A stretch of DNA of 25,664 nt from a virus. The notes below the pieces were generated by a model, which saw only the letters and a program-made list of their open reading frames with translations, searched no databases and had not been told where the DNA came from. The stretch lies in the IMG/VR virus record IMGVR_UViG_3300023179_002686, positions 1-25,664 of that record, one strand, 5' to 3'. Made by a program: the position numbers and the translations under genes. Shown here piece by piece: positions 7,563 to 22,908 of this stretch; the first letter of the stretch is position 1, and every line of letters starts with the position of its first letter.

Positions 7563-7622
7563 TAAATATACTAGAGCCATTTTGGGCTAGTATGTTTTCA
7601 ACTTGCTTAAAAGGAGTTAAAC

Positions 7623-8075
7623 ATGACATTCGCATACGGACGTAATCTGCTTCCATCAACTGTTGGATTTGATAGACTTCTAACGACACTTGACGAAGCA
7701 CTAAATATTCCTGACAAGGTTCTAACGTCATTTCCGCCGTACAATATCGCAAAGATTAGCGATGATAGATATGTAATTGAACTAGCAGTTGCTGGTTTCA
7801 AGAGAGAAGAAATTGACATTACCTTGGAAGATAACAAATTGACAGTTCAGGGAAACGCAAAGAAAGATGACGACAACGGCAAAACTTATTACCATCGTGG
7901 CATTGCTCTTCGTAATTTTACCCGTGTATTTACTCTTGCAGATACGGTAGTAGTAAAGTCTGCTGATCTTGTTGACGGAATGCTTGTGATTGAACTTGAA
8001 AATGTAATTCCGGAAAACAAGAAACCTCGTAAGATTCCTTTGACGGAATCGCAGAAAGTTCTTTCTGCAAAGTAA
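7623..8075 (+). CDS. Small heat-shock protein (Hsp20/IbpA-like)
   Basis: A 150-residue protein with an alpha-crystallin domain at about residues 38-130: YVIELAVAGFKREEIDI, the L-T-V-x-G strand, then RNFTRVFTLAD and GMLVIELENVIPE. The C-terminal I-P-L at 138-140 is the I/V-x-I/V tail motif used for oligomer assembly. Family role: ATP-independent holdase that keeps unfolding proteins soluble. Hsp20 genes are common in T4-like cyanophages, where a scaffold or assembly role has been proposed. The start ATG 7623 has a strong AAAAGGAG at 7609-7616. The 60-base upstream gap has an AGTAAATA octamer (7561) and a weak inverted repeat (7569-7592). Confidence 0.92.
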   Translation: MTFAYGRNLLPSTVGFDRLLTTLDEALNIPDKVLTSFPPYNIAKISDDRYVIELAVAGFKREEIDITLEDNKLTVQGNAKKDDDNGKTYYHRGIALRNFTRVFTLADTVVVKSADLVDGMLVIELENVIPENKKPRKIPLTESQKVLSAK

Positions 8076-8082
8076 TTTCTCA

Positions 8083-8090
8083 ACTAAATA
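8083..8090 (+). promoter_or_regulatory. Candidate T4-type late promoter (ACTAAATA)
   Basis: Identical to the octamer at 1542, in the gap after hsp20 and 80 bases upstream of the SpeD-like start. It precedes the 14-bp hairpin at 8117, so a transcript starting here would carry that hairpin in its leader. Motif-based inference. Confidence 0.4.
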
Positions 8091-8116
8091 ATCTCACTTA
8101 ACTTCAACAACTAACC

Positions 8117-8147
8117 AGTCACCGTGGGTATCGTACTCACGGTGACT
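8117..8147 (+). terminator. Long hairpin between hsp20 and the SpeD-like gene (terminator or leader element)
   Basis: AGTCACCGTG (8117-8126) pairs perfectly with CACGGTGACT (8138-8147). The inner bases GGTA/TACT add four more pairs (one G-U), leaving only the 3-base loop TCG (8131-8133). The following TTCTTTCT is a weak U-tract. A second small hairpin, CTTTC (8149-8153) with GAAAG (8157-8161), covers part of the AAGGA ribosome site of the SpeD-like gene. Likely the hsp20 terminator, but a leader that controls downstream translation is possible. Confidence 0.65.
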
Positions 8148-8170
8148 TCTTTCTAAGAAAGGATACTTTG

Positions 8171-8527
8171 ATGGAACAATACTGGGGTTATCACGCAATG
8201 CTTGATTGTCGCGCCTGCGATATTGAATTAATCAAGAGTTATGATAATGTAGCCAATTTTGCAAAGAGTCTTGTGAATGCTATTGATATGAAAGCCTTTG
8301 GAGAACCTCAGATTGTTCACTTCGGTGAGGGAAATAAAGCAGGATTTACACTTGTTCAACTTATCGAAACAAGTAATATCTGTGCTCATTTCTGCAATGA
8401 TACTGGAGACGCATATATTGATGTGTTTTCTTGTAAGCCATATGATCGTGATGTGGTAAGAGATCAGATCATTCAGTTCTTCAATCCGCGTCAGATCACA
8501 GTCAACTACATTGAACGTCAGGCGTGA
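8171..8527 (+). CDS. SpeD-like protein, divergent S-adenosylmethionine decarboxylase paralogue
   Basis: A 118-residue protein with ATG 8171 behind AAAGGA (8158-8163). It aligns with SpeD: WGYHAMLDCRACD start, HFGEG, then S68, H73 and C88 at the places of the pyruvoyl serine, the processing histidine and the catalytic cysteine. It differs at the cleavage site: IETS replaces the usual AES, so T67 stands at the -1 position normally held by Glu. The classical SHISIHTWPE run is SNICAHFCND here, losing the Trp-Pro-Glu. It may be a neofunctionalised pyruvoyl decarboxylase (such SpeD relatives acting on ornithine or arginine have been described) or a regulatory partner of the true SpeD next door. Three bases separate the two genes. 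Confidence 0.75.
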   Translation: MEQYWGYHAMLDCRACDIELIKSYDNVANFAKSLVNAIDMKAFGEPQIVHFGEGNKAGFTLVQLIETSNICAHFCNDTGDAYIDVFSCKPYDRDVVRDQIIQFFNPRQITVNYIERQA

Positions 8528-8530
8528 GAG

Positions 8531-8875
8531 ATGACCGTATCATACATGGGTCGGCATGTTATTGCTGATTTGCATGATGTATCTGCGGAACTTCTTGGCT
8601 CAATTGATTTTTGGAAAGAGATCCTAATTGATGGAGCCAAGAAGTCTGGTGCGACAGTACTAAGTGATCATTTCCATCATTTTGGTGAAGGATATGGTCT
8701 TACTGGTGTAATCGTTCTTGCAGAGAGCCATATTAGCATTCACACATGGCCAGAGAAAAACTACGCAGCAATTGATGTATTCATGTGCGGAACATGTGAT
8801 CCTGAAGTTGCAGTAGATCATATTACAAGCAGACTAAATAGCATTGTCAAAAAAGATTTGATATATCGAAAGTAA
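8531..8875 (+). CDS. speD: S-adenosylmethionine decarboxylase proenzyme (SpeD)
   Basis: A 114-residue prokaryotic class SpeD. It carries the textbook processing site LAESHISIHTWPE: cleavage between E65 and S66 would turn S66 into the pyruvoyl cofactor, with H71 and C86 as the processing and catalytic residues. HHFGEGYGLTG precedes it. The enzyme makes decarboxylated SAM, the aminopropyl donor for spermidine. No spermidine synthase is in the window, so the product would feed host SpeE. speD is a known auxiliary gene of T4-like cyanophages. It follows the SpeD-like gene by 3 bases (GAGAG as ribosome site), so the two are co-expressed. The 3' end carries the -35 of the next promoter (8858). Confidence 0.93.
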   Translation: MTVSYMGRHVIADLHDVSAELLGSIDFWKEILIDGAKKSGATVLSDHFHHFGEGYGLTGVIVLAESHISIHTWPEKNYAAIDVFMCGTCDPEVAVDHITSRLNSIVKKDLIYRK

Positions 8876-8886
8876 TTTGATATAAT
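8858..8886 (+). promoter_or_regulatory. Sigma70-type promoter with extended -10
   Basis: TTGATA (8858-8863), 17 bases, then TATAAT (8881-8886) preceded by TG at 8878-8879. The -35 lies inside the end of speD and the -10 in the gap before the small gene at 8912. It can also drive the start of the glycan cassette at 9235. Confidence 0.75.
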
Positions 8887-8911
8887 TGCTTGATAATTCG
8901 GAGATTATATT

Positions 8912-9235
8912 ATGAGATATATTGGCTATTCAGTCTCTCGCTGTGTGCGCGATATTGTAAAGAAGCGTGTAAATATTTACGCAATTGAAATCATCATTGG
9001 TCGCACAATGATTGAGAATGAGCAACACATTTCGGAAGTTGCTCGCGGATATCATTCTTTGCCAAAATCAGATTATAGATCATGGGCCGATCTAGATTTT
9101 GATGCATGTCAGAAAGTATTGCTTGAACTATATCGTGATGGTAAGCTACATCAGCCAAGACTATATGGAAAGTATCCAATTCGCATGGACAATCATTGGG
9201 GTGTGATTGCTCCATTTCCCATGAGTGCTTTCTGA
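8912..9235 (+). CDS. Small conserved phage protein, function unknown
   Basis: This 107-residue protein resembles short hypothetical proteins of T4-like aquatic phages. They share an IGYSVSRCVRDIV start and a GKLHQPRLYGKYP segment near residue 80. No catalytic motif, signal peptide or membrane segment is visible; it looks like a compact alpha/beta cytoplasmic protein. GGAG at 8900-8903 is 8 bases before ATG 8912. It is the first gene behind the promoter at 8858 and overlaps the next start by one base (TGATG), so it is co-translated with the first glycosyltransferase. It marks the boundary between phage core genes and the glycan cassette. Confidence 0.7.
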   Translation: MRYIGYSVSRCVRDIVKKRVNIYAIEIIIGRTMIENEQHISEVARGYHSLPKSDYRSWADLDFDACQKVLLELYRDGKLHQPRLYGKYPIRMDNHWGVIAPFPMSAF

Positions 9236-9948
9236 TGAAAGCTGTAGTTATCATTCCAACTACAGGCGATAGAAAAGTTCTACAGGCGATCAAGAGTGTA
9301 GAAAATCAAACATATAAAGACACTAGCTATCTTCTTGTTGTAGACGGAAACAAATTCAAACCAAGATTTGATGATCTATTTGTAAATAGCGATCCTTATA
9401 TGCCACCAAAGGATGTCGTATATTTGAAACATAATACAGGCGCTGATGGTTTCTATGGTCATAGAATTTACGCAGGATTTTCGCATTTAGTCAATGAAGA
9501 CATTGTTTTGTTTTTAGATCAGGACAATTGGTTTGAACCAGATCATGTGGAAAAGCTTGTAAAAACAATACAAGATGGCAATCTTGCTTGGGCATTTAGT
9601 TTACGGAATATCTACGACAAGAATGATAATTTTCTTTGTCATGATGATTGCGAAAATCTAGGAAAATATCCTGTGTGGAATGGTATGCACTATCATGTTG
9701 ATACAAGTGCATATGCATTTCGTCGCGAATTTCTTATCCGCGTCGCTTCCGTGTGGCATTCTGGCTACGCTGGAGATAGACGTTTTTTCAATGCAATAAA
9801 AGATGTTGCTCCATTTGATACTAGTGGTGCATATACTTTGAATTATAGATTGGACGGAAATCCAACTTCTGCATCACCAGATTTTTTCATTCATGGTAAT
9901 AAAATGAATGAACAAAAATATAATGGTAATTATCCTTGGAGAAAATGA
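9235..9948 (+). CDS. Family 2-type glycosyltransferase
   Basis: A 237-residue GT-A protein. The N-terminus AVVIIPTTGDRKVLQAIKS and the NQTYKD segment are the usual first strand and helix of GT2 enzymes. LFLDQDNWF (93-100, with D95 and D97) is the DxD-type metal motif. A later WHSGYAGDRRFF region is in the place of the acceptor-side catalytic segment. ATG 9235 overlaps the previous stop by one base; I reject an earlier frame start at 9196 that would run into that gene. It opens the glycan cassette. Donor and acceptor cannot be read from the sequence; a cytoplasmic enzyme with no membrane segment. Confidence 0.82.
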   Translation: MKAVVIIPTTGDRKVLQAIKSVENQTYKDTSYLLVVDGNKFKPRFDDLFVNSDPYMPPKDVVYLKHNTGADGFYGHRIYAGFSHLVNEDIVLFLDQDNWFEPDHVEKLVKTIQDGNLAWAFSLRNIYDKNDNFLCHDDCENLGKYPVWNGMHYHVDTSAYAFRREFLIRVASVWHSGYAGDRRFFNAIKDVAPFDTSGAYTLNYRLDGNPTSASPDFFIHGNKMNEQKYNGNYPWRK

Positions 9949-10794: not shown

Positions 10795-11799
10795 ATGAAA
10801 AGGGCATTGATAACAGGAATTACAGGTCAAGACGGATCATATCTAACAGAACTTCTTCTGGACAAAGATTACGAAGTTCATGGTATAATTCGCAGAAGTT
10901 CATCTATAAACACAAATAGAATTGATCATTTGTATGAAAATGCAAAATTAAAATTGCATTATGGTGATATTACTGATTCTCTTTCTTTGACCAATGTTCT
11001 CAAGAAAGTACAGCCGCAAGAAATCTACAATCTAGCAGCACAAAGTCATGTGAAGGTTTCGTTTGAAACACCAGAATATACTGCGATGGTTGATGGTTTA
11101 GGAACTTTGAAATTGCTTGAGTCTGTCCGTGCTTTGAGTATGGAAAAAGATGTCAAGATTTATCAAGCGTCAACTTCAGAACTATATGGTTTAGTTCAAC
11201 AAATACCGCAAAATGAATTAACGCCATTTCATCCCAGATCTCCTTATGGCGTTGCTAAGTTATATGCTTTTTGGATAACAAAAAACTATAGAGAATCCTA
11301 CGGCATGTTTGCTAGTTCTGGGATTTTGTTCAATCATGAAAGTCCTAGAAGAGGACACAATTTTGTGACTAAAAAAATTGTTGATGGTCTAAGAAAGATT
11401 TCGCAAGGCAAACAAAAAGTTTTGAAATTAGGAAATTTGAATGCTCTTAGAGACTGGGGTCATGCTAAAGATTATTGTAGGGCAATGTGGTTAATACTAC
11501 AACATCATGTTTCTGATGATTTTGTAATTGCTACGGGCGCACAGTATTCCGTTAGAACATTTATTGAAAACTGTGCTCCTTATTTTAACATGAACATTCA
11601 ATGGTCCGGAGAAGGATTAAACGAAGTTGGTATAGATACTAATACAAATAGAATTGTTGTTGAAATAGATTCGAAATATTTTAGACCCGCTGAAGTTGAA
11701 ACTTTGCTAGGAGATGCTACAAAAGCAAGAACACAGTTGGGATGGAAACCGGAATATACATTCCAAAAATTGATTGAGGAGATGTGTTTGAATGGATAA
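10795..11799 (+). CDS. gmd: GDP-mannose 4,6-dehydratase
   Basis: A 334-residue extended SDR enzyme. The NADP-binding GITGQDG is at 8-14, the catalytic T127/S128/E129 sits in STSELYG, and Y151-x-x-x-K155 in [22 protein letters not shown] and the NLAAQSHV run are hallmarks of Gmd and distinguish it from RmlB. The reaction is GDP-D-mannose to GDP-4-keto-6-deoxy-D-mannose, the branch point to GDP-fucose, GDP-colitose, GDP-perosamine and GDP-rhamnose. It is somewhat shorter than E. coli Gmd (373). The next gene overlaps by 8 bases. GDP-mannose must come from the host, as no ManB/ManC is visible here. Confidence 0.94.
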
Positions 11800-12730
11800 G
11801 AATAGTGTGATATATGTTGCTGGACATAGGGGGCTTGTCGGTTCTGCAATAGTGAGAAAGTTGGAAGAACAAGACTATAAGAACATTATAGGAATATCTC
11901 ATAGTGAATTAGATTTGTGTTCTCAAGAGCAAACCAATTATTTCTTCAAATGGCATAAACCAGAATATGTATTTTTGGCTGCAGCTAAAGTCGGCGGAAT
12001 AAACTACAATGCTACTGTTCCAGCAGAGTTTATCTACGAAAATTTGATGATTCAGTCGAATGTAATAAATGCAGCACACGAAAACAAATGCAAAAAACTT
12101 TTATTTCTGGGATCTGCTTGCATTTATCCAAAAGTTACTCCTCAACCAATAAAAGAAGATTACTTGCTAATGGATAAGTTGGAACCAACTAACGATGCAT
12201 ATGCATTGGCCAAAATTGTTGGTTTAACTATGGCGAAATATTATACCAAACAATATGGAATGCCTACTATTAGTTTGATGCCTGCGAATTTGTATGGTCC
12301 GAATGATCATTTTGATCCCGATAAATGTCATGTAATTCCAGGTCTTATAAACAAGTTCTATAATGCAAAATTGACAAATCAACAACTTGTTGAAGCTTGG
12401 GGTGACGGAACGCCAACTAGAGAATTTTTATATGTTGATGATTTGGCAGATGCTTGTTTGTTCTTGATGAACAATTATCATTCTTCTGAACATATAAATG
12501 TAGGCAGTGATGTTGAGATCACTATAAAAACACTATCGGAAATAATCAAGGAAAAAATTCAATACGAGGGTGATATTTTTTGGAATAAATCGAAACCCAA
12601 TGGCACTCCTAGAAGAAAGCTAGATAGTAGTAGATTATTCAATATGGGATGGAGACCAAAAGTATCCTTTGATGAAGGATTGACAAAAACTATAAAATGG
12701 TTTGAACAGAATAAAGAGAGATTGAGATGA
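11792..12730 (+). CDS. fcl: GDP-L-fucose synthase-type epimerase/reductase (Fcl, or ColC)
   Basis: A 312-residue SDR with GHRGLVG (11-17) for NADPH. Its catalytic set is S108, C110, Y137, K141 and H180, each one position beyond E. coli Fcl S107, C109, Y136, K140 and H179. The segment [18 protein letters not shown] is diagnostic. The family reaction is 3,5-epimerisation and 4-reduction of GDP-4-keto-6-deoxymannose to GDP-L-fucose. The colitose enzyme ColC is a close relative that does 5-epimerisation and 4-reduction after ColD, and the next gene is ColD-like. Fcl fits the motifs best; ColC is a real alternative. It overlaps gmd by 8 bases and the next gene by 4. Confidence 0.88.
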
Positions 12731-13905
12731 ATTGGCCATTAATGGGTGAAACTATAACATTTCTAGATAGAGTAAAGATTTCTAGTTTTGTGATGACTAC
12801 AAAACGATTTACCATGGGCGAAAAGGTAAAAAAGTTTGAAAGTGAATGGAGCAAATGGTTGGGCGCTAAACATTCATTGTTCGTCACTAGTGGTAGTACT
12901 GCAAATACATTACTTGTTTCTTCAATAAAAGAACTATTCAAACTAAAAGATGGGGATAAAGTACTGGTTCCTGCTTGCACTTGGGTGACAAATATTTCTC
13001 CCATTTTTCAATGTGGTCTTCAACCAATTTTTTGCGACATCAATCTAAAAAATTACAGCTTTGACATTTCCGAAGTCGAAAAAATAGGAAAGAAGCATAA
13101 AGACATAAAGATGATATTTGTCACTCATCTTTTGGGATTTTCTGCACAAAATCATATACTACAAAAAGTATTCCCGAATGCAATCATAATTGATGACATA
13201 TGTGAGTCGCATGGTTGCTTAGATAACGAGGGATTTAAATACGGCTCAAAAAGCTTGGGTGCTACTTTTAGTTTCTATTTTGGTCATCACATGTCTACTA
13301 TTGAAGGTGGTATGATTTCTACAAATAATACAGAGTTGTATGACATCATGCGTATGAAAAGAAGTCATGGAATGGCCAGAGAGTCAATGAATAGTAAAGA
13401 GTATGCGGAAAAATACAAGAATATCGAATCGACTTTTTTATTCATGACTGATGGATACAATTTTAGAAATCACGAAATCTGTGCAGTTTTGGGATTGTCA
13501 CAATTGAAACGTTTGGACAAAATGATAGAAAAGAGAAGACGCAACTACGATGATTACGTAAATTTGATCAATAAGTTTTCAAATCTTTTTTATCCCCACG
13601 AATATCAAGAAGGTAATAGTAGTTTTTGTTTTCCCTTCATTTGCAAAAATAAAAATATAGCAAATGAAATGAAGAAAGTATTCAAGAAAAATCAAATTGA
13701 ATATAGACCTATTGTTAGTGGAAATCTTCTCACTCAACCGTTTTTGTTAGAAAGAAGTTACAAGTTGGAAACAACAAAGAATATATCAAATGTGGATATA
13801 TTGCACGATCAAGGTGTGTATATCGGAAATAGTCATTTTATTGGCAAAAAACATATGAAACTACTTTTGAAATCATTGGAAGAGGTGAATGAAAATGTTG
13901 GCTGA
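12727..13905 (+). CDS. ColD/RfbH-type PLP-dependent sugar 3-dehydratase (DegT family, His at the Lys position)
   Basis: A 392-residue DegT/DnrJ/EryC1/StrS-fold protein, close to ColD (388). The residue that normally forms the PLP Schiff base (Lys in aminotransferases) is His: FYFGHHMSTIEGG puts H188 there, the same number as catalytic H188 of E. coli ColD. Such His enzymes (ColD on GDP sugars, RfbH on CDP sugars) remove the 3-hydroxyl rather than transaminating. TSGSTAN (54-60) would bind the PLP phosphate and the IIDD stretch (154-157) its ring nitrogen. Next to gmd, the likely substrate is GDP-4-keto-6-deoxymannose, giving the 3,6-dideoxy sugar route to GDP-L-colitose. The fold is sure and the dehydratase role likely; the substrate is inferred from context. 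Confidence 0.8.
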   Translation: MNWPLMGETITFLDRVKISSFVMTTKRFTMGEKVKKFESEWSKWLGAKHSLFVTSGSTANTLLVSSIKELFKLKDGDKVLVPACTWVTNISPIFQCGLQPIFCDINLKNYSFDISEVEKIGKKHKDIKMIFVTHLLGFSAQNHILQKVFPNAIIIDDICESHGCLDNEGFKYGSKSLGATFSFYFGHHMSTIEGGMISTNNTELYDIMRMKRSHGMARESMNSKEYAEKYKNIESTFLFMTDGYNFRNHEICAVLGLSQLKRLDKMIEKRRRNYDDYVNLINKFSNLFYPHEYQEGNSSFCFPFICKNKNIANEMKKVFKKNQIEYRPIVSGNLLTQPFLLERSYKLETTKNISNVDILHDQGVYIGNSHFIGKKHMKLLLKSLEEVNENVG

Positions 13906-14236
13906 ATCACTCGAAAAAGTCATTGAGAATACTGTAGCAGAAAAACTATCAAAGAAGACAATCCCAGAAATAAGCGAGTGGGTTTCTACTGATAATTTGG
14001 GCGAAGTCATAGAAAAACTAGCCATTCTACATATTAGAATGTGGATGCTTGAAGATGCCGCACAAGCTGCTAAATCAGATAGTGAATTGGCAGAAATCAA
14101 AAGAAAAATTGATATTTGCTTCAAGCAGAAAAGACCCAAGTTTGTACAAGCAATTAATAAAATGGTAGATGAAGCTATAGTTCATAATAAATCTCTTGTA
14201 GAAGATTCAGTAAAGCTATATAAAGGTGTTTCATGA
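13895..14236 (+). CDS. Small helical protein in glycan cassette, resembling DUF4254/DUF6165-type proteins
   Basis: This 113-residue protein is predicted to be nearly all helix, with no membrane segment. The segment LGEVIEKLAILHIRMWMLED recalls small proteins found in LPS and glycan clusters (DUF4254- or DUF6165-like), whose function is unknown. I choose ATG 13895, 9 bases from GAGG (13882-13885); ATG 13889 is only 3 bases from it. It overlaps the end of the ColD-like gene by 11 bases and the next gene by 4, so it is embedded in the operon. A structural or accessory role for a glycosyltransferase is a guess. Confidence 0.6.
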   Translation: MLAESLEKVIENTVAEKLSKKTIPEISEWVSTDNLGEVIEKLAILHIRMWMLEDAAQAAKSDSELAEIKRKIDICFKQKRPKFVQAINKMVDEAIVHNKSLVEDSVKLYKGVS

Positions 14237-15132
14237 AAATTATTTTCTTCAATCATTTTCATAGGGGTGATTTGGTAACCCACAAGGAGTTTGTTAGACA
14301 CATAAAGCAACTCTTGCCAAATAATCAATATGAATATTGGCATTTTAATCATCCTAAAGTCAATCTGGATCTTCAAATCCCATTAACAAATATTCCAAAT
14401 GAACTTGATCAAAATGTAGTTTTCTACGAAAATGATGATGTATTAGCAATCAATACTTGGATAGGAGTTTGGGGAAATATACTACCACAATATAATGGCA
14501 TTAATATAGAAACTTTGTATGAAAGTTGGAAGATAATTTTTGACAAACTAAACTTGAAATTGCACGAGGATCGCGAAGAATATCTTCCCACTATTGACTA
14601 TAGCTTTTTCAATTTAGAGAAAGTGAATTCGTATTTGCAATCAAATCAGCAAAAGAGAATCTTGATATGCAATGGAAAGCCAATGTCGAATCAGTCTTTT
14701 GATGGAGATATGCGAGAAATTGTGACTTCATTTGCATCAAGTCATCCCAACATCGATTTCATCTGTACGAAAAAATTCGAAAACAATCTATCTAATATTT
14801 TGTTTACTGATGATATCATTGACGATCAAGAAAACTTTTTGGGTGTAAATCCAGCATGGAATGATAGAATTTCAAATACTTGTGATTTGAACGAGATCTC
14901 TTATCTTAGTACAAAATGCAATGCAATCATAGGAAAGAATTCTGGACCCTTTGTTTTTTGTGAAACCAAACAAAATTTCAAAGATCAGAATAAAGTGTTC
15001 GTTTCTTTCTGCAATTCTAAAAACGAATCAATGAGCAATGGTGTTAACTTGTATTGCAGATATAGATTAGTAAAAAATTATGAACCAAAAAACATCATAG
15101 AGTCTTTTGGTTGGGTAATATCTCAAATATAA
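14233..15132 (+). CDS. Putative glycosyltransferase, GT-B-like
   Basis: A 299-residue protein that I can place only loosely. The C-terminal half has a Rossmann-like pattern: ILICNGKP (strand), then EISYLSTKCNAIIGKNSGPFVF. In that segment a G-K-N-S-G-P-F loop after a strand resembles the nucleotide-sugar site of GT9 (heptosyltransferase) and fucosyltransferase-like GT-B proteins. The N-terminal domain (IIFFNHFHRGDLVTHKEFV) has the look of a GT-B acceptor domain with a GD-turn. Similar proteins sit beside GT10 genes in aquatic phages and bacteria. ATGA overlap with the previous gene. Could also be a non-catalytic glycan-binding relative. Confidence 0.55.
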   Translation: MKIIFFNHFHRGDLVTHKEFVRHIKQLLPNNQYEYWHFNHPKVNLDLQIPLTNIPNELDQNVVFYENDDVLAINTWIGVWGNILPQYNGINIETLYESWKIIFDKLNLKLHEDREEYLPTIDYSFFNLEKVNSYLQSNQQKRILICNGKPMSNQSFDGDMREIVTSFASSHPNIDFICTKKFENNLSNILFTDDIIDDQENFLGVNPAWNDRISNTCDLNEISYLSTKCNAIIGKNSGPFVFCETKQNFKDQNKVFVSFCNSKNESMSNGVNLYCRYRLVKNYEPKNIIESFGWVISQI

Positions 15133-15151
15133 CTCATTTGGAGATTTGATC

Positions 15152-16045
15152 ATGAATAATGTATTGAGACTGGGTTTTACAGACATAATAAAATCCATAG
15201 AGAACTTTTTCATTCATCAATTGTCAAAAAAATATCAAGTGATAAGAGATGATGAAAATCCAGATTATTTGATTTTTAGTGATAGAAATTTTGGAAACAA
15301 TAACGTCCACTACAATAACAAGAATTGCATAAAGATATTCTATACTGGAGAAAATGAAAGACCATGGAACTATCAATGTCATTATTCGATATCATTTGAG
15401 CATGACACATTTGACGGAAGAAATTTTCGTCTACCACTGTATGTCATATATGATCACGACAATCATTACAGAGATGTACCAAATACAAGCACAATTTCTC
15501 GTAGTAAAGAAGATTTATTGAATCCAAAAAAGTTTTGCTCTTTTGTTGTGAAAAATCCCGGATCTGAAAAAAGAAATCAATGGTTTCACAAACTGAGTTC
15601 GTATAAGTTTGTTTCTTCGGGCGGTCCTCTATACAACAACATAGGATACGTTTTATCTAGAGGTGATGATGGGATACAGGAAAAAATAAAGTTTCTCAAC
15701 AATCATAAGTTTAACTTGTGTTTTGAGAATAGCAGCTATCCGGGATATGCAACAGAGAAGTTGTATGAAGCATTGTGTTCAAAGACCATTCCGATTTATT
15801 GGGGCAGTCCAACAATTGAATGCGATTTCAACTCCAAAGCTTTCTTGAATTGGAACGACTATCAAGATGACGATCTATTTTTGGAAGCGATAAAGAAGAT
15901 TGATCAAAACAACGATTTATATGAAGAAATGTTTTTTCAACCAATGTTTTCTTCAAATACGAAGCGAAACAAATTTTTTGACATGGAACTTTTCCTAAAC
16001 TGGTTTGACAAAACTGTATACAAGGGAGTCATAAACAATAGATGA
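15152..16045 (+). CDS. GT10 alpha-1,3/4-fucosyltransferase
   Basis: A 297-residue enzyme. The donor-binding signature FENSSYPGYATEK (191-203), followed by ALCSKTIPIYWGSP, is the core of GT10 fucosyltransferases. The N-terminal YTGENERPWNYQCHYSISFE with RLPLY is also typical. FVVKNPGSEKRNQWFHKLSSY supplies the RxxxxxxL-type segment before it. It moves L-fucose from GDP-fucose to a GlcNAc- or Glc-type residue in family members. Encoded in the same run as gmd and fcl, it is the obvious consumer of GDP-fucose, or of GDP-colitose. ATG 15152 is preceded by GGAG (15140-15143). No membrane helix, so it acts in the cytoplasm on a lipid-linked or protein/DNA acceptor. Ends the first cassette transcript. 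Confidence 0.88.
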   Translation: MNNVLRLGFTDIIKSIENFFIHQLSKKYQVIRDDENPDYLIFSDRNFGNNNVHYNNKNCIKIFYTGENERPWNYQCHYSISFEHDTFDGRNFRLPLYVIYDHDNHYRDVPNTSTISRSKEDLLNPKKFCSFVVKNPGSEKRNQWFHKLSSYKFVSSGGPLYNNIGYVLSRGDDGIQEKIKFLNNHKFNLCFENSSYPGYATEKLYEALCSKTIPIYWGSPTIECDFNSKAFLNWNDYQDDDLFLEAIKKIDQNNDLYEEMFFQPMFSSNTKRNKFFDMELFLNWFDKTVYKGVINNR

Positions 16046-16052
16046 ACCGGTG

Positions 16053-16060
16053 TATAAATA
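16053..16060 (+). promoter_or_regulatory. Exact T4 late-promoter octamer (TATAAATA)
   Basis: TATAAATA is the exact T4 late-promoter consensus and lies in the 101-base gap after the GT10 gene. The sigma70-type promoter starts 11 bases later, so this gap may fire both early and late. Confidence 0.5.
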
Positions 16061-16070
16061 TAAAAAAACA

Positions 16071-16098
16071 TTGACATTTTTCGTGTCTATGCTATAAT
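16071..16098 (+). promoter_or_regulatory. Sigma70-type promoter, extended -10, for the second half of the glycan cassette
   Basis: TTGACA (16071-16076), 16 bases, then TATAAT (16093-16098) with TG at 16090-16091. The next gene starts at 16147 behind GTGAGG, leaving a leader of about 40 bases. It splits the cassette into two transcription units. Confidence 0.82.
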
Positions 16099-16146
16099 TT
16101 TTTCTATATACTTGAATGGCGACAATCCATAAATTGTGAGGTTATT

Positions 16147-17183
16147 ATGACAAGAGTGCTTTTGACGGGTGGTGCAGGATTTATTGGTCATCATGTTGTT
16201 GATTTGTTGCTAAGAGAAACAAATTGGGAAATAGTATCACTTGATCGTTTGGATTACTCTGGTAATCTAAATCGACTGGACAATGTAGTTTCTTCCTTTC
16301 CTAAAGAAGAAAGAAAAAGAGTAAAAGTCGTTTTTCATGATCTTCGTGCAGAAATCAATTCTTTGCTAAAGAACATGCTGGGTGAATTTGATTATATTCT
16401 TCATCTAGCCGCAAGTAGTCACGTTGATCGTTCTATTACATATCCTATGGAATTTGTAATGGACAATGTTGTTGGAACTTGCAACATCTTGAATTTTGCT
16501 AGAGAGCAAAAAGATCTAAAAAGATTTATCTACTTTTCGACAGACGAGGTCTTTGGGCCCGCTCCCGCCGGAGTAAATTACTCCGAGAAAGAAAGATACA
16601 ATTCAAGCAATCCGTATTCCGCTACTAAGGCTGGTGGCGAAGAACTTGCTGTTGCTTTTGAAAATACATACAAACTTCCTGTGTTCATCACACACACGAT
16701 GAATGTATTTGGCCAAGACAGCATCCCGAAAAATACATTCCGATGTGCATTCGCAAAGTGCGCGATAATGACACAATCTTCATTCATTCGGACAAGACGA
16801 AAACTATTCCTGGATCGAGATTCTATATTCATGGTTCAGATGTCGCGGATGCCATTTATTTTCTTCTAAATCTAAATGAAGAACAGCTAAACTCGGTCTA
16901 TCTTCCAGACTACGGTGGAGCAAAGTGTCCTAAGTTCAACATCGTTGGTAAAGAAGAAATCGATAACTTGCAATTGGCCAAGTATATTGCGAATTGCCAA
17001 GACAAAGAACTAAAGTATGAAATGATCGATTTTCATACTTCTAGACCAGGTCATGATTTGAGATATGCACTATCGGGAGAATTCATGAAGTCTTTGGGTT
17101 GGACTCCCAAATTCTCTCTCAGAGAAAGAATTAAAGAAGTAGTAGACTGGTCGATGGCAAATCAAGAATGGATCGAACTATAA
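16147..17183 (+). pseudogene. RmlB-like nucleotide-sugar 4,6-dehydratase interrupted by a one-base frameshift
   Basis: Two frames together give one complete dehydratase of about 345 residues. Frame one (from ATG 16147) has the NAD site TGGAGFIG, LAASSHVDRS, catalytic TDE in STDEVFG, YSATK (Y-x-x-x-K) and MNVFGQD, ending in frame at about 16719. The downstream frame resumes with HPEKYIPMCIRKVR and runs to TAA at 17183. Family members read NVFG followed by a QHPEKYIPM-type stretch, so one base, probably a C in an original GACCAG, is missing at about 16719-16720. Otherwise both halves are intact. Either a fresh mutation, an assembly error, or -1 slippage on A5 (16729-16733), which would give SIPKKYIPM of the same length. 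Reaction if restored: NDP-glucose to NDP-4-keto-6-deoxyglucose. Confidence 0.85.
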
Positions 17184-17199
17184 TAACTCGGAGTAAGTC

Positions 17200-17763
17200 A
17201 TGATAATTAAAATAGACACAGCAGCACAAGCGGTAACGCATGTAAACAAATGGCTACCTGGTGAAGATATTCCAAAATTGTTGGAATATAAAGAGAACTT
17301 GGTGGGAATTGAAATCGGAGTAGACTGTGGAGTCACCAGCGAACATTTGTTGTCTAGCTTGCCGACTTTGAAACTATTTGGAATAGATCCATACATGGAT
17401 TATGTTGATTGGTCAAACGTTCTTGTTACGGGTCAGGAGTCAAATGCATTTCCAGTAATGATGGAAAAGACTTCAAAGTTTGATAAAAGATTTGTTCTTA
17501 TTAGAGAGAAGTCTGATGATGCTATAAACGTTTTTGAAGACGAAAGCATGGACTTCATCTTTGTTGATGGTATTCATACATACGATCAGGTTCTAAAGGA
17601 CTGTCGAAATTATTGGCCAAAGCTAAAAAGAAACGGTCTTTTTTGCGGTCATGATTTCACAAACATTCAACAAGTCAATCAAGCCGTGAATGAATTTGCA
17701 CAAGAAATTGGCTATCAGATTTCAAGAGCAAATCAAGATATTTGGTATTGGTTCAAGAAATGA
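17200..17763 (+). CDS. Class I SAM-dependent methyltransferase (Methyltransf_24-like)
   Basis: A 187-residue protein. VGIEIGVDCGVTSEHLL (about 35-51) is motif I binding SAM, with GIDPYMD after strand 2. FIFVDGIHTYDQVLKDCRNYWPKL (near 125-148) is the acidic motif IV/V typical of Methyltransf_24, common in sugar and glycan clusters, where O-methyl groups are added to sugars. GLFCGHDF follows. GGAG (17190-17193) precedes ATG 17200. The next gene starts inside its stop (ATGA). Substrate unknown; a sugar or its nucleotide-linked form is likely from context. A macrocin-like O-methyltransferase type is the main alternative description of the same fold. Confidence 0.78.
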   Translation: MIIKIDTAAQAVTHVNKWLPGEDIPKLLEYKENLVGIEIGVDCGVTSEHLLSSLPTLKLFGIDPYMDYVDWSNVLVTGQESNAFPVMMEKTSKFDKRFVLIREKSDDAINVFEDESMDFIFVDGIHTYDQVLKDCRNYWPKLKRNGLFCGHDFTNIQQVNQAVNEFAQEIGYQISRANQDIWYWFKK

Positions 17764-18221
17764 ATCTCGAAAATCTCTGCGTAGTGGAAATTAAAACCGA
17801 AGAAGATGCACAAATCTTGAGAGAATTGAGGAACGAGTGCAGAAACTACATGACACGAAACAAGGATTATATTGATGCCGAACAACAGAGTTTTTGGTTT
17901 AAAAACCTTGATAGAATCAAAGTAAATCTCTTCTTGATAAAGAATGACATAGATAATGTTGGGTTTGGCATTTTAAGACTTGAAGACGATGTTGTTTTGC
18001 TAACTGGTGGGGTGACGGAAAAATCTAGAGGCTTTGGTATTGGTGAATATGTCTTTAGATTTTTGTTAGATGAAGCTAAAAAGCACAATAAAAAAATAGA
18101 ATTGGAAGTTTTAGTTTCAAATAAAGTGGCAAAAAAATTGTATAACAAGTTGGGTTTTGTTGAATTCAAAAGAACAGACAAAGTAATTTCAATGGAGTAT
18201 AGAAATGATACCTCTCTTTAA
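17760..18221 (+). CDS. GNAT-family N-acetyltransferase
   Basis: A 153-residue GNAT. The acetyl-CoA pyrophosphate loop is RGFGIGEYVFRFLL (R-x-x-G-x-G), after the strand VVLLTGGV. The C-terminal LYNKLGF motif is the usual GNAT end. Such enzymes in sugar clusters acetylate an amino sugar made by a DegT aminotransferase. That gene follows directly and overlaps by 17 bases, a strong hint that both work on one nucleotide-sugar. The N-terminal LRELRNECRNYMTRN segment is seen in FdtC- and PseH-like acetyltransferases. ATG 17760 overlaps the methyltransferase stop by 4 bases. Substrate not determined. Confidence 0.85.
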   Translation: MNLENLCVVEIKTEEDAQILRELRNECRNYMTRNKDYIDAEQQSFWFKNLDRIKVNLFLIKNDIDNVGFGILRLEDDVVLLTGGVTEKSRGFGIGEYVFRFLLDEAKKHNKKIELEVLVSNKVAKKLYNKLGFVEFKRTDKVISMEYRNDTSL

Positions 18222-19281
18222 AGTAAGAATGTCTGAAAATGTTGGCGATCTTGTAAAGAATGTATTGCACTCTGGATACATTTCACAGGGGCCTAAGGTA
18301 GACGAATTTGAAAAAGAGCTACAAAAGGCTTTAAAGAGTAAAAATACTCCAGTAACAGTAAACTCATGCACATCAGCAATAGACTTGTCTTTGGAATTGT
18401 GCAACGTCGGATATGGTGATGAAGTCATATCCACTCCACAAACTTGTTTTGCATCACAAATCGGAATCTTGCATAGAAATGCAAGAATAAGATGGGCCGA
18501 CATAGATCCAATAACAGGTCTAATTGATCCGAATTCTGTAAAAAGTCTAATTACAGAAAAGACAAAAGCCATAGTTGCTGTCAATTGGGCTGGGAAAATC
18601 TGCGACTTCAAAACACTCAAGTCGTTTGGCATTCCCGTAATCGAAGATGCTGCTCACACCTGGGATTCATTTGTCGATACAAATGTTGAGCGTGGCGATT
18701 ATATTTGCTATAGCTTTCAAGCCATAAAGTTTTTGACATCAGGCGATGGTGGTGCTATAATATGCCCAAATGAAGAAAAGACAAATGAAGCTAAACTTCT
18801 AAGATGGTTTGGTTTGGATAGAACAAAAAATGAATCATTTAGATGTACACAGAATATCAAACGTGCTGGTTTCAAATATCACATGAATGATATAAACGCA
18901 ACTATTGGAATGTCTAACATAGAACTGGCAAATGATTCTGTTCTAAAACATAGAAAAAATTCAAAGTACATCATTGATAATGTGAAAAATGAAAGATTGG
19001 TTCTACCAAATTATGACGAAACAAATTCGTTTTGGTTGTTTAGTATGCATGTTCTAAACGATAGAAAGCAGTCATTTGTCGATTATTTGACAGAAAAAAA
19101 GATTGCATCTAGTCCTGTACATTATAGAAACGATTTATATGATTCAACGATCAAGTTCAAGGAAAATGACTTGCCCGGAGTGACTCAATTTACAAATACG
19201 CAAATTTGCATTCCGAACGGTTGGTGGTTGACAAATCAGAATCTTGATTATATTGTGGAAACGCTGAATAGTTATGAATAA
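18205..19281 (+). CDS. DegT-family PLP-dependent sugar aminotransferase
   Basis: A 358-residue fold-type I aminotransferase. The Schiff-base lysine is present: CYSFQAIKFLTSGDGG gives K175, unlike the His enzyme at 12727. SGYISQGPKVDEFE at the start, NSCTSAIDLSL for the PLP phosphate and IEDAAHTWDS (E147-D148) for the pyridine nitrogen are all typical. It transfers an amino group from glutamate to a keto-sugar nucleotide, probably at C3 or C4 of a 4-keto-6-deoxy hexose from an RmlB-type enzyme. Paired with the GNAT gene, the product would be an N-acetylated amino-deoxysugar. GGAG at 18194-18197 precedes ATG 18205. A perfect promoter lies inside it (18733). Confidence 0.88.
   Translation: MIPLFKVRMSENVGDLVKNVLHSGYISQGPKVDEFEKELQKALKSKNTPVTVNSCTSAIDLSLELCNVGYGDEVISTPQTCFASQIGILHRNARIRWADIDPITGLIDPNSVKSLITEKTKAIVAVNWAGKICDFKTLKSFGIPVIEDAAHTWDSFVDTNVERGDYICYSFQAIKFLTSGDGGAIICPNEEKTNEAKLLRWFGLDRTKNESFRCTQNIKRAGFKYHMNDINATIGMSNIELANDSVLKHRKNSKYIIDNVKNERLVLPNYDETNSFWLFSMHVLNDRKQSFVDYLTEKKIASSPVHYRNDLYDSTIKFKENDLPGVTQFTNTQICIPNGWWLTNQNLDYIVETLNSYE
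18733..18761 (+). promoter_or_regulatory. Exact sigma70 consensus inside the aminotransferase gene
   Basis: TTGACA (18733-18738), 17 bases, TATAAT (18756-18761) and extended TG (18753-18754) make a full consensus in the codons for FLTSGDGGAII after the PLP lysine. It would drive genes from 19274 on. The protein sequence here is conserved, so a chance match shaped by codons is possible. Confidence 0.5.
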
Positions 19282-19966
19282 CATTTTTGTCATACCGTCA
19301 ACAATACAACCATTTTATGGCGTCGTTAGTCATGAAGACAGGTATATACAAACTCTTGAAACAATAAAGAGCATCAAAAACATAGTTACGGATGAACACT
19401 TAATAGTTCTAATTGATAGTTCTGCAATAAAACTATCTCAAGAAAAATTGGAAAATCTTAAAAATAACGTTGATGTTTTTTTGGATTTTAGTGATGATCA
19501 ACTCGCACAAGAATTCAATGGCAAATGGTTAAAGAGTCCGGGAGAAAATTATCTACTCTTTAATGCGATAATCAAGACAAAACAGCTTTTTGATCTTACA
19601 AACAAAAAGGGTAGAATGTATAAGCTTGGTGGCAGATGTTTTTTGCTACCCAAGTTCAATAGTCTTGATCACACTTCAATTGAAGACAGATATATTTTCA
19701 AGAAGAGATTGAATACTTGGAGAACATTGGAAGAGCAAAAAATATGCAATAGTACGCACTTGTTGGAGACCAGATTCTATTCATGGCCATTCAACTTTGT
19801 CGATGATTATCTTGAAGTGATAAAGAAAAATTTCGAAATGTTCAATTATGGTCTAGACACAGAACATGCCCATTTTTTGAACATTCCAAAAGATAAATTA
19901 GTAGAATTTGACAAAATGAATGTTGGTTGTATCATGGCAGCCAACGGAAATTATATGGAGGATTGA
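19274..19966 (+). CDS. Glycan-cassette protein of unknown function, possibly GT-A-like
   Basis: I do not recognise the family of this 230-residue protein. It starts at ATG 19274, overlapping the aminotransferase by 8 bases. The N-terminal half (NNIFVIPSTIQPF, then EHLIVLIDSS) suggests a strand-turn-helix like the opening of a GT-A nucleotide-sugar fold. RMYKLGGRCFLLPKFN near residue 115 recalls the K-x-x-GRY/GRC motif of some phage and bacterial sugar transferases. LDTEHAHFLN near residue 195 could be a metal or acceptor site. No membrane helix or signal peptide. A glycosyltransferase is the best guess from fold hints and context; no catalytic residue is proven. Confidence 0.5.
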   Translation: MNNIFVIPSTIQPFYGVVSHEDRYIQTLETIKSIKNIVTDEHLIVLIDSSAIKLSQEKLENLKNNVDVFLDFSDDQLAQEFNGKWLKSPGENYLLFNAIIKTKQLFDLTNKKGRMYKLGGRCFLLPKFNSLDHTSIEDRYIFKKRLNTWRTLEEQKICNSTHLLETRFYSWPFNFVDDYLEVIKKNFEMFNYGLDTEHAHFLNIPKDKLVEFDKMNVGCIMAANGNYMED

Positions 19967-19969
19967 GTT

Positions 19970-20710
19970 GTGAAGAAAGCAATTATTTTTGTTCCTACGG
20001 GAAATTATCCAGATCAATTCGACGATAGGTATGATAGAACTGCACATTGGAGATCAAAGCATCCAGATCGCACATATGAAATTATCAATTGCGTGTATAA
20101 GGAAGGATTTGAGCCTGATCCGAACACATATGACTATGTTTATCATATTCGCGGTCACAAGTGGCAAATGGTTCGTGATGTATTCAATCAGTTTGATTAT
20201 TCAAAATATGACTATGTCGGTTGCATAGACGATGACGAGATTACAGACGTTTGGAATTTAAATCGCGGTCTAGAAATTGCTCGTCGTTTTGATTTTCGTC
20301 TGTGGCAATTGTCTATGGCGGAAGGCTCGGAGCTATTTTATCCGTGTCTGGCACAAGATAAATCCATTGACTTCTCAGAAACAAACTTTCTTGAGTGCGG
20401 CGTTCCCGTGTTTAGAGCTGACATATTTACCAGAATACTCAAGGCCTTGAATAATTGGTCTGGTTACGAACAGGCATGGGGTCTTGATAAAGCATATTGT
20501 GATATCGCACAGTCACATGCACATGTCATACATAGCGCATCAATTTATCATCCGCCGAGAGATTCATACTACGATAAGACTGATGCGATGAATGAGTTGA
20601 ATTCTTTCATGACCACTATATATCCTAGAATGGCCCGTGAAGTATTCGGCCATGATTCGATGATGATAGATCAGCAAGTTACCTATCATAGATTTAAACT
20701 AGGAAATTGA
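19970..20710 (+). CDS. Putative glycosyltransferase (DUF707-like), GTG start
   Basis: A 246-residue protein starting at GTG 19970, with GGAGG at about 19957-19961 and the previous stop 3 bases upstream. YDYVGCIDDDEITD (about 80-93, with D87, D88, D89 and E90) is a DDD-type metal motif at the end of a strand. A later YEQAWGLDKAY is in the place of the W-G-L/I-D motif of DUF707 proteins, which are predicted GT-A sugar transferases. The start KKAIIFVPTGNYPDQF is a typical first strand. Arginine codons CGT/CGC are more frequent here than in neighbouring cassette genes. Donor and acceptor unknown. Confidence 0.68.
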   Translation: MKKAIIFVPTGNYPDQFDDRYDRTAHWRSKHPDRTYEIINCVYKEGFEPDPNTYDYVYHIRGHKWQMVRDVFNQFDYSKYDYVGCIDDDEITDVWNLNRGLEIARRFDFRLWQLSMAEGSELFYPCLAQDKSIDFSETNFLECGVPVFRADIFTRILKALNNWSGYEQAWGLDKAYCDIAQSHAHVIHSASIYHPPRDSYYDKTDAMNELNSFMTTIYPRMAREVFGHDSMMIDQQVTYHRFKLGN

Positions 20711-20712
20711 TA

Positions 20713-21492
20713 ATGTTTGATCACATTGATTTTATAGATAGGGCAAAAGAATTTCGTAATTCTCAGCCATTTAATCATGTTGTAATTGATAACTTTTTTG
20801 ATGAAGCAACTGCGAAAAATCTAGCGAAAGAATATCCAGACTATAATGATGATTTTTGGAAAATCAACTATAACAATCCAATAGAAATAAAGAAAACAAA
20901 TCAATCTTGGACAAATTTCTCATCTTCTTTTTATAAAGTCTTTCACGAACTTCTTGATCGCAAGTTCACAGAAAAATTGACTTTGATGACGGGCATAAAT
21001 CCTCTTTATGTCGATCATGGATTGCACGGTGGTGGGCTACACACCCATTCAACAAATGGAAAACTAAACGTTCATTTAGATTATGCAATTCATCCAAAAC
21101 TCGGTCTTCAAAGAAAACTAAACTTGATCGTATACTTGAACGATAATTGGAAAGAAGAGTGGGGTGGACACATTGAATTTTGGAGTCATGACGAGACAAA
21201 AAATGCTCCAAAAGAATGTGTAAAGAAAGTTGCTCCATTATTCAATAGAGCAGTTCTTTTTGACACTACTCAAAATTCTTGGCACGGATTGCCAGAACCC
21301 CTAAAGTGTCCAGATGGAGAAATGCGTAAAAGTCTTGCTGTATATTACTTAACAGACGTTGATGCAAAAACTCAAAGTCTCTTTGGTGCAAAGTTTGCTC
21401 CATACAAAGAACAAGAAAAAGATCAGTCAGTTCTTGACTTGATTGACAAAAGAAATAATAATATAGCTAGTCTAGTTCGTACTTATAGGTAA
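20713..21492 (+). CDS. 2-oxoglutarate/Fe(II)-dependent oxygenase
   Basis: A 259-residue enzyme of the 2OG-FeII_Oxy_3-like group. The iron ligands are H121-x-D123 in VHLDY and H191 in SWHGLPEP; R205 in MRKSLAVYYL would bind 2-oxoglutarate. LNLIVYLNDNWKEEWGG between them is the double-stranded beta-helix core, with the usual GG-H-IEFW strand. It would hydroxylate or oxidise a substrate in the cytoplasm. Within a glycan cassette the substrate may be a sugar, but such genes are also common in T4-like phages without a known target. I choose ATG 20713, 8 bases from AGGA (20701-20704), over TTG 20707. Confidence 0.86.
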   Translation: MFDHIDFIDRAKEFRNSQPFNHVVIDNFFDEATAKNLAKEYPDYNDDFWKINYNNPIEIKKTNQSWTNFSSSFYKVFHELLDRKFTEKLTLMTGINPLYVDHGLHGGGLHTHSTNGKLNVHLDYAIHPKLGLQRKLNLIVYLNDNWKEEWGGHIEFWSHDETKNAPKECVKKVAPLFNRAVLFDTTQNSWHGLPEPLKCPDGEMRKSLAVYYLTDVDAKTQSLFGAKFAPYKEQEKDQSVLDLIDKRNNNIASLVRTYR

Positions 21493-21500
21493 TTGATAAA

Positions 21501-22445
21501 ATGAAAAAGATTCTTGTGACGGGTGGTGCTGGATTTATTGGCATCAACTTTGTCAAATACATGACAGATGTGTCGAACGCACAAATCGTTGTTGTTGACA
21601 AGTTCACTTATGCAAGTAACTCGGATGAACTTATCAATAAAATGAAAATACCAACTTATTGTGTGGATATATCGGACAAAAAAGATCTTGAAGAAGTATT
21701 CAAAGAAAATGAATTTTCTTGCATAGTTCATTTTGCTGCAGAAAGTCATGTTGATAGATCGATTAAGGATTGCTCACCATTTGTGCAATCAAATATCATA
21801 GGCACTATCAATCTACTTGATCTTGCATTAAAGTATAAAGTAGAAAAATTTGTGCAAATATCAACCGATGAAGTATTTGGTGAAGTTCCGTATCCTGGAA
21901 AATTCAATGAATATTCTAACATTTGTCCACGCAATCCATATTCAGCTAGTAAAGCTGCTGCCGAACACTTTGTGGAAGCATATGGCAACACATATAAATT
22001 GCCATATATCATAATCAATTCTTCAAATAATTATGGTCCATGGCAAAACGTAGAGAAGTTCATTCCTCTGACTATTTCTAGGATCATGAAGAATCAAAAA
22101 ATTCCCGTGTATGGAACTGGAAGTCAAGTGCGCGATTGGATCTATGTAAAAGACGCCGTTGAGGCAATATATCTCATAATGCAAAACGGAGAGATGCAAC
22201 AGAGATATTGTATTGGTGGCGAAAACGAAATAAGAAACATTGATCTTGTTCGTCATATTTTAATGAAAATGGGCGCCGATGAAACATTGATTGAATATGT
22301 CAATGATCGTCCGGGACATGATGCTAGATATTCCATGTCAATAGACATTGTTAAAAAAGAGTTGAAGTGGTCTCCCCGCTATAGTCTCTCAGAGGGACTA
22401 GATGAAACTATAAAATGGATGAAAACCCATGAAGATAGGATTTAA
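21501..22445 (+). CDS. rmlB: dTDP-glucose 4,6-dehydratase-type SDR (RmlB)
   Basis: A 314-residue SDR with NAD site TGGAGFIG (about 7-14), HFAAESHVDRS, the catalytic TDE in STDEVFGE and YSASK. The NSSNNYGPWQNVEKFIPL and RDWIYVKD segments are the RmlB signature after the active site. It converts NDP-glucose (dTDP-glucose in the classical case) to the 4-keto-6-deoxy sugar. It is an intact version of the reaction lost or frameshifted at 16147, and belongs to a different sub-branch (RmlB here, with FGPAPAG-type sequence there). No RmlA is visible, so the host would supply dTDP-glucose. The next gene overlaps it by 17 bases. Confidence 0.88.
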   Translation: MKKILVTGGAGFIGINFVKYMTDVSNAQIVVVDKFTYASNSDELINKMKIPTYCVDISDKKDLEEVFKENEFSCIVHFAAESHVDRSIKDCSPFVQSNIIGTINLLDLALKYKVEKFVQISTDEVFGEVPYPGKFNEYSNICPRNPYSASKAAAEHFVEAYGNTYKLPYIIINSSNNYGPWQNVEKFIPLTISRIMKNQKIPVYGTGSQVRDWIYVKDAVEAIYLIMQNGEMQQRYCIGGENEIRNIDLVRHILMKMGADETLIEYVNDRPGHDARYSMSIDIVKKELKWSPRYSLSEGLDETIKWMKTHEDRI

Positions 22446-22908
22446 TTGTAGCAGCTTTGATTTGTTACATGCTGGTCACGTAACAATGCTCAAGATGGAA
22501 AAAGAGTTATGTGACTATCTAAAGGTCGCACTCCAAGTTGATCCGACAATCGATAGACCCGGATCAAAAAATAAACCAATTCAAAGCATTTATGAACGAT
22601 ATGTTCAGCTACAAGCATGTAAATACGTTGATGAAATTCTTGTGTATGAAACTGAATTTGATCTATTGCAGCTATTGATGACTCAGACCATTCACATTAG
22701 ATTTCTGAGCGATGAATATTTGAATAGAGATTTTACAGGCAAGCAATGGTGTATTGACAACGGCATCGAATTGCATTATCATAAGAGACAACATATATAC
22801 GGTTCTTCGGAATTGAGAAAAAGAACATATGAAATGGAGAAGAAGCGTCTTGACGAAATCATCAGTAAAGAAATCCCTCAACATCATCCGGAATTGGTAA
22901 AACCATGA
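22429..22908 (+). CDS. Cytidylyltransferase-like nucleotidyltransferase (TagD/HldE-C type)
   Basis: A 159-residue protein. The HxGH motif is H14-A-G-H17 in FDLLHAGHVTML, and IYGSSELRKR near residue 124 is in the place of the ISTTxI/SSSxLR motif that binds the nucleotide. This is the pattern of glycerol-3-phosphate cytidylyltransferases and of the sugar-1-phosphate domain of HldE/RfaE. It would activate a small phosphorylated compound with CTP (or ATP). The partner substrate is not clear; no polyol-phosphate synthase is visible, so a host metabolite is likely. It overlaps rmlB by 17 bases and the next gene by 4, so it is co-translated with both. Confidence 0.82.
   Translation: MKIGFNCSSFDLLHAGHVTMLKMEKELCDYLKVALQVDPTIDRPGSKNKPIQSIYERYVQLQACKYVDEILVYETEFDLLQLLMTQTIHIRFLSDEYLNRDFTGKQWCIDNGIELHYHKRQHIYGSSELRKRTYEMEKKRLDEIISKEIPQHHPELVKP

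Follow-up and report, generated by a model that had tools for sequence, protein, structure and literature searches.

Among the systems closest to the one described here is SpeDC, a pyruvoyl-dependent ornithine decarboxylase (ODC) that evolved from SpeD, the S-adenosylmethionine (AdoMet) decarboxylase, and whose activity has been assayed; the text of Li et al. 2023 JBC (PMC10407285) gives four residues, Gln, Thr, Phe and Tyr, as diagnostic of SpeDC and describes the Pro of the WPE run as fully conserved in bona fide AdoMet decarboxylases (AdoMetDCs). According to the same text, the second SpeD of Anaerolinea thermophila UNI-1, encoded in a cluster of the speD-speDC-speE type, was assayed and is an ODC. 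For phages, the text of Li et al. 2023 PNAS (PMC9992855) reports that several of them require spermidine for normal replication and that the protein of Sinorhizobium phage phiN3 is an AdoMetDC, proven by complementation in E. coli, where it restores spermidine; by that text, just one of the surveyed phages encodes multiple polyamine enzymes, namely AdoMetDC together with spermidine synthase. SpeDC, phage SpeDC, cellular clusters of speD with speDC, and SpeD-SpeDC fusions are already published.

The DNA analyzed here (the window) is a virus record of 25,664 bases, a fragment of a T4-like phage that carries the T4-type replication genes for the sliding clamp gp45 and the clamp-loader subunits gp44 and gp62, along with a CobS-like AAA ATPase, a dUTPase and Hsp20. 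The sequence-only reading of the window had pointed to tandem SpeD-like and SpeD genes at 8171-8875; both open reading frames are there, both are AdoMet_dc genes by Pfam, and they abut each other directly after hsp20. We refer to their products as P1 and P2 (Table 1). Very probably, to judge from the sequence comparisons below, the phage carries a polyamine module of two enzymes, P1 as a SpeDC and P2 as a SpeD, whose products would be joined by the spermidine synthase (SpeE) of the host.

Table 1. Features of the speDC-speD locus, with coordinates in the window
Feature	Position	Strand	Basis or remark
TAAATA, T4-type late promoter-like	8085..8090	+	invariant in 11 aligned phages
14-bp hairpin in the hsp20-speDC gap	8117..8147	+	z -5.3; stem kept despite two-sided changes
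AAAGGA, P1 ribosome-binding site	8158..8163	+	invariant across 11 aligned phages
P1, SpeDC-like gene, predicted pyruvoyl-dependent L-ornithine decarboxylase, 118 aa	8171..8527	+	ATG 8171, stop TGA 8525-8527
Gln63 codon, first SpeDC diagnostic residue	8357..8359	+	alignment; signature PMC10407285
Thr67 codon, 'TS' of the SpeDC signature	8369-8371	+	directly before Ser68
Ser68 codon, predicted pyruvoyl precursor	8372..8374	+	alignment with T. maritima SpeD and phage and cellular homologs
His73 (processing/catalysis) and Phe74 (third SpeDC diagnostic residue) codons	8387..8392	+	alignment
Tyr82 codon, fourth SpeDC diagnostic residue	8414..8416	+	alignment
Cys88 codon, catalytic Cys (= C83 of T. 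maritima)	8432..8434	+	alignment
Junction TGAGAGATG: stop of P1, GAG, start of P2, in frame	8525..8533	+	kept in relatives
P2, bona fide class 1b AdoMet decarboxylase (SpeD), 114 aa	8531..8875	+	PF02675, TIGR03330, 1tlu match
P2 Ser66 codon, predicted pyruvoyl precursor within AESHISIHTWPE	8726..8728	+	

The two genes are separated by TGA GAG ATG only, and a junction of the form TGA-GA(G/A)-ATG is conserved among close relatives, including those with a replaced speD, while one relative (L018) has a shifted junction with TAA. This arrangement suggests translational coupling, by which P1 and P2 would be co-translated. Upstream of P1, the TAAATA element is a candidate promoter and the hairpin a putative terminator or 5'-leader hairpin, the stem of which occurs as CCGTG..CACGG and as CCGCG..CGCGG in the 11-phage alignment; an Rfam search of window positions 7600-9300 gave no match. 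Downstream of the polyamine pair, at 10795-23687, there is a long run of open reading frames whose translations resemble nucleotide-sugar epimerases/dehydratases, aminotransferases, a methyltransferase and a cytidylyltransferase, a content that suggests surface-glycan genes.

P2 is an ordinary SpeD. It matches PF02675 with 113.4 bits (E 8e-33), lies above the cut-off of the NCBIfam SpeD equivalog TIGR03330 (121.5 versus 75.65), matches T. maritima SpeD 1tlu at E 2.9e-23 and groups with bona fide SpeD in our tree. As anticipated in the sequence-only reading, it has the textbook site: its motif AESHISIHTWPE follows the ESH...H-WPE-C pattern and retains the Pro of WPE. P2 is matched by 141 phage records, chiefly cyanophages, in some of which speD adjoins the sliding clamp gene; SpeD is common among marine T4-like phages.

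P1 belongs to the same Pfam family (AdoMet_dc, PF02675; 71.1 bits, E 1.1e-19, with a cut-off of 25 bits) and falls below the cut-off of the SpeD equivalog TIGR03330 (35.9 versus 75.65). Its signature stretch LVQLIETSNICAHFCNDTGDAYIDVFSC contains Q63, T67, S68, H73, F74, Y82 and C88. All four diagnostic SpeDC residues are thereby present, their positions being taken from the order stated in the text of PMC10407285 rather than from its Fig. 8 logo, and the processing triad Ser68/His73/Cys88 (S63/H68/C83 in T. maritima) is intact. The Pro of WPE is missing, with HFCND in its place. The numbering of S68, H73 and C88 in the sequence-only reading was right, as were its remarks on the Thr before Ser68 and the absent WPE; because the four diagnostic residues match, the two oddities noted there, Thr in place of Glu before the Ser and no WPE, are the signature of SpeDC. 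The AlphaFold model of P1 (pLDDT 95.5) has the SpeD fold and aligns with T. maritima SpeD 1vr7 at Z 17.6 and an rmsd of 1.8 over 112 residues. P1 is no decayed pseudoenzyme but, most likely, a SpeDC that converts ornithine to putrescine.

In a signature alignment of 176 sequences, the Gln or Thr of the SpeDC signature occurs in none of 43 SpeD-type neighbours (25 cellular and 18 phage). The SpeD proteins of T. maritima and S-PM2 have none of the four residues, the arginine decarboxylase (ADC) of pelagiphage HTVC201P has Gln and Thr without Phe and Tyr, and the phiN3 AdoMetDC (L164 2983-3399) has Gln, Phe and Tyr with Asp replacing Thr. Since each of these proteins lacks one or more signature residues, P1 differs from every proven non-ODC compared, and the case of phiN3 indicates that the residue preceding the pyruvoyl Ser may be a key to substrate choice. 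This Ser is kept by 44 of 45 distinct phage relatives of P1; the exception (L028 4388-4741) has AGA (Arg) at the Ser68 position with the remainder intact, which points to either a sequencing error or a dead copy. The constancy of the signature inside the fetched sets is partly due to selection of the sequences, because the fetch patterns contained Gln and Thr for the cellular loci and Phe and Tyr for the phage loci.

Placing P1 in a tree of SpeD proteins, as the sequence-only reading had proposed, sets it apart from SpeD: P1, its phage relatives and all cellular SpeDC-like proteins form one clade of 44 rows with support 100/90, which includes a metagenome-assembled genome named Anaerolinea thermophila. 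Outside this clade follow, in order, phiN3 on a long branch, the pelagiphage ADCs including HTVC201P, and the second homolog of MaAM05. The tree comprises 83 rows and 120 columns, and with so few columns and several long branches its inner branching order is untrustworthy. Because P1 and P2 are separated into two old lineages, P1 is not a recent copy of P2, and a recent duplication from P2 to P1 is ruled out. The terms 'lost' and 'neofunctionalised' used in the sequence-only reading could be taken to mean a decayed or recently changed copy of P2, a sense in which they do not apply. We rejected tree placement alone as evidence for the substrate, since phiN3 adjoins the SpeDC clade yet restores spermidine; judging from the aligned residues, it is the Thr that separates the clade from phiN3. 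The link between P1 and ODC activity is drawn from the published residues and the same-named relative rather than from a direct comparison with the proven ODCs LBP, UCP01-04 and BAJ63311; a tblastn search of the phage collection did not recover the assay-proven phage ODCs.

Strong purifying selection acts on both genes, with dN/dS of ~0.01-0.07 for P1 and P2 (versus orthologs at 84-99% identity, using unsaturated dS only), and neither this ratio nor the model of P1 discriminates the substrate. Among 80 IMG/VR phage contigs fetched with P1, many of which are near-copies, 37 have an adjacent second AdoMet_dc gene, 34 show no such gene in the flanks that were fetched, and in 9 the P1 relative lies too close to the end of the contig, so that no SpeD adjoins the P1 relative in 34 of the 71 phage loci with enough flank. 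The P1-P2 pair is not a product of chance or an assembly slip, given these 37 paired contigs and the purifying selection on both genes. Contigs of 142 and 197 kb that bear the pair have exactly two AdoMet_dc genes each, and contigs of 158 and 174 kb have a single one each. In the related phage contigs that were searched, which reach 197 kb in length and are possibly incomplete, no speE, no PLP-type ODC or ADC and no agmatinase or arginase was found. In cells, speDC occurs together with speD and speE in 25 of 80 loci; the order is speDC-speE-speD in many Gammaproteobacteria and speD-speDC-speE in Anaerolineae, including Anaerolinea, and Rhodospirillales have a speD-speE pair on the strand opposite to the speDC-like gene.

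We propose that P1 would cut itself between Thr67 and Ser68, that Ser68 would become a pyruvoyl group and that the mature protein would decarboxylate L-ornithine to putrescine. P2 would cut itself at Ser66 and decarboxylate S-adenosylmethionine, and the host SpeE, which we invoke because no spermidine synthase was found in the phage, would combine putrescine with decarboxylated S-adenosylmethionine into spermidine during infection. The phage probably boosts host polyamine production in this way. If this is true, both rate-limiting steps of spermidine synthesis are packed into ~700 bases with no PLP enzyme, and only the spermidine synthase of the host is needed. The idea of a SpeD relative turned pyruvoyl ornithine or arginine decarboxylase within a mini polyamine pathway, raised in the sequence-only reading, is well supported, and the signature and the clade favour ornithine.

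Arginine is nevertheless a substrate to be considered, since HTVC201P, an ADC just outside the clade of P1, shares the Gln and the Thr before Ser, and UCP01 decarboxylates both arginine and ornithine. P1 would then be a SpeDA, a pyruvoyl decarboxylase of arginine, or would act on both ornithine and arginine, and host enzymes would convert the agmatine to putrescine. We find this unlikely: Phe74 and Tyr82 of P1 are absent from HTVC201P, which branches outside the SpeDC-like clade that contains P1, and the related phage contigs yielded no agmatinase, which disfavours an ADC because without a host route for it the agmatine would go unused. It is highly improbable that P1 is a second AdoMetDC, comparable to the SpeD of phiN3, in a phage with two SpeD enzymes. 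The phiN3 protein shares three SpeDC residues out of four and does restore spermidine, but it has Asp rather than Thr before Ser and lies on a long branch outside the SpeDC-like clade, and P1 lacks the WPE Pro of bona fide AdoMetDCs.

SpeD proteins are dimers and the two genes abut, with the pairing conserved in 37/80 fetched phage loci, which would also suit a prozyme-like P1 that is hardly or not catalytic and binds P2 to activate or regulate it. Precedents for an inactive partner are the trypanosome prozyme and, in the text of PMC10407285, a degenerate SpeDC domain of V. vadensis. However, the processing and catalytic residues of P1 are intact, its substrate-type residues are strongly conserved, it lies in an enzyme clade and is under purifying selection, and its phage relatives occur without a neighbouring SpeD, including the single-gene contigs of 158 and 174 kb. 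In L011 and L012 the relative of P1 is 97% identical whereas the partner SpeD and P2 share only 37% identity, and a partner swapped to this extent does not suggest a co-evolved interface between P1 and P2. An inactive partner, which the sequence-only reading had offered as its other option, is thus very improbable. We also regard as decidedly unlikely a mixed SpeDC/SpeD oligomer of P1 and P2, translated from a single message with one codon between the genes, whose two active subunits would regulate one another, as when putrescine from P1 stimulates P2; it would be a two-gene counterpart of the SpeD-SpeDC fusions and a possible intermediate toward the eukaryotic AdoMetDC/prozyme. A read-through P1-P2 chain (TGA as Trp) was modelled to seek a pseudo-dimer like that of class 2 AdoMetDC; the model, built from 12 rows only, has pLDDT 80.6 and pTM 0.77, and its AdoMetDC matches span one half at a time, none of them the whole length.

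Several relatives differ from the window in the second gene. In L011 (3264-4316) and L027 (5361-6413), and also in L012 and L028, a divergent speD replaces speD from the start codon of P2 onward; its product has 36-37% identity to P2 and the motif ESHLSWHWYNE, without the WPE Pro. The divergent speD is followed in L011 and L027 by a convergent gene for a 234-aa HNH endonuclease (PF13392, E ~1e-12), past which L011 rejoins the gene order of the window at 8849, and the swap looks like an endonuclease-linked replacement. Adjoining the SpeDC gene in L055 (3793-4887, minus strand) and L056 (3788-4882, minus strand) is a 365-aa open reading frame with a full AdoMet_dc domain and a C-terminal GIY-YIG-like part (a weak match, below cut-off).

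Compared with SpeDC as described in the text of PMC10407285, P1 has the same four diagnostic residues, triad, size, SpeD fold and clustering with speD; it differs in being phage-borne, in lying directly before speD with no speE found, and in that its activity is predicted. The phage ODCs LBP and UCP01-04 (Li et al. 2023 PNAS, PMC9992855), set beside P1 by their description, are likewise phage-borne, SpeD-derived and 117-122 aa long, but they are described there as single genes, and that text describes no phage pairing of ODC with AdoMetDC. A SpeD-derived decarboxylase in a phage is accordingly less notable than the sequence-only reading supposed, phage SpeDC and SpeDA having been characterised in 2023 (PMC9992855). 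No phage speDC-speD pair was found described in the main texts of the literature searched, and to that extent the enzymes are known and their pairing appears to be new in phages. With a single phage listed in the PNAS survey as having several polyamine enzymes, a module of ODC and AdoMetDC would extend that list.

Two adjacent SpeD homologs, as in the window, also occur in the cluster speH_2-speH_1-speE-speB of Microcystis phage PhiMa05/MaAM05 (MW495066), which unlike the window adds speE and speB and whose second homolog is SpeDA-like, without the Gln, Thr, Phe and Tyr of SpeDC. In this cultured phage the run of speD, second SpeD homolog, speE and speB (L163 2486-5264) is apparently a complete arginine-to-spermidine route; in the PhiMa05 paper (PMC8093824), SpeD comes up a single time, as one ORF. 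P2 resembles the class 1b AdoMetDC of T. maritima (1TLU) and the SpeD of cyanophage S-PM2 in sequence, motif and fold, whereas P1 has ETSN versus (A/S)ESH, lacks the WPE Pro and shows 19-20% identity in the structural alignment. Prozyme belongs to the eukaryotic class 2 and is catalytically dead, whereas P1 keeps its triad, although the AdoMetDC/prozyme heterodimer of Trypanosoma brucei (5TVM) likewise consists of two SpeD-fold paralogues. The SpeD-SpeDC fusions of Desulfotignum and Omnitrophica, as described in the text of PMC10407285, bring the same two enzymes together in one polypeptide with SpeD first, whereas P1 and P2 are encoded by two genes with SpeDC first and one in-frame stop between them; P1 and P2 would be natural separate counterparts of the fusion, with which one could ask whether the subunits mix.
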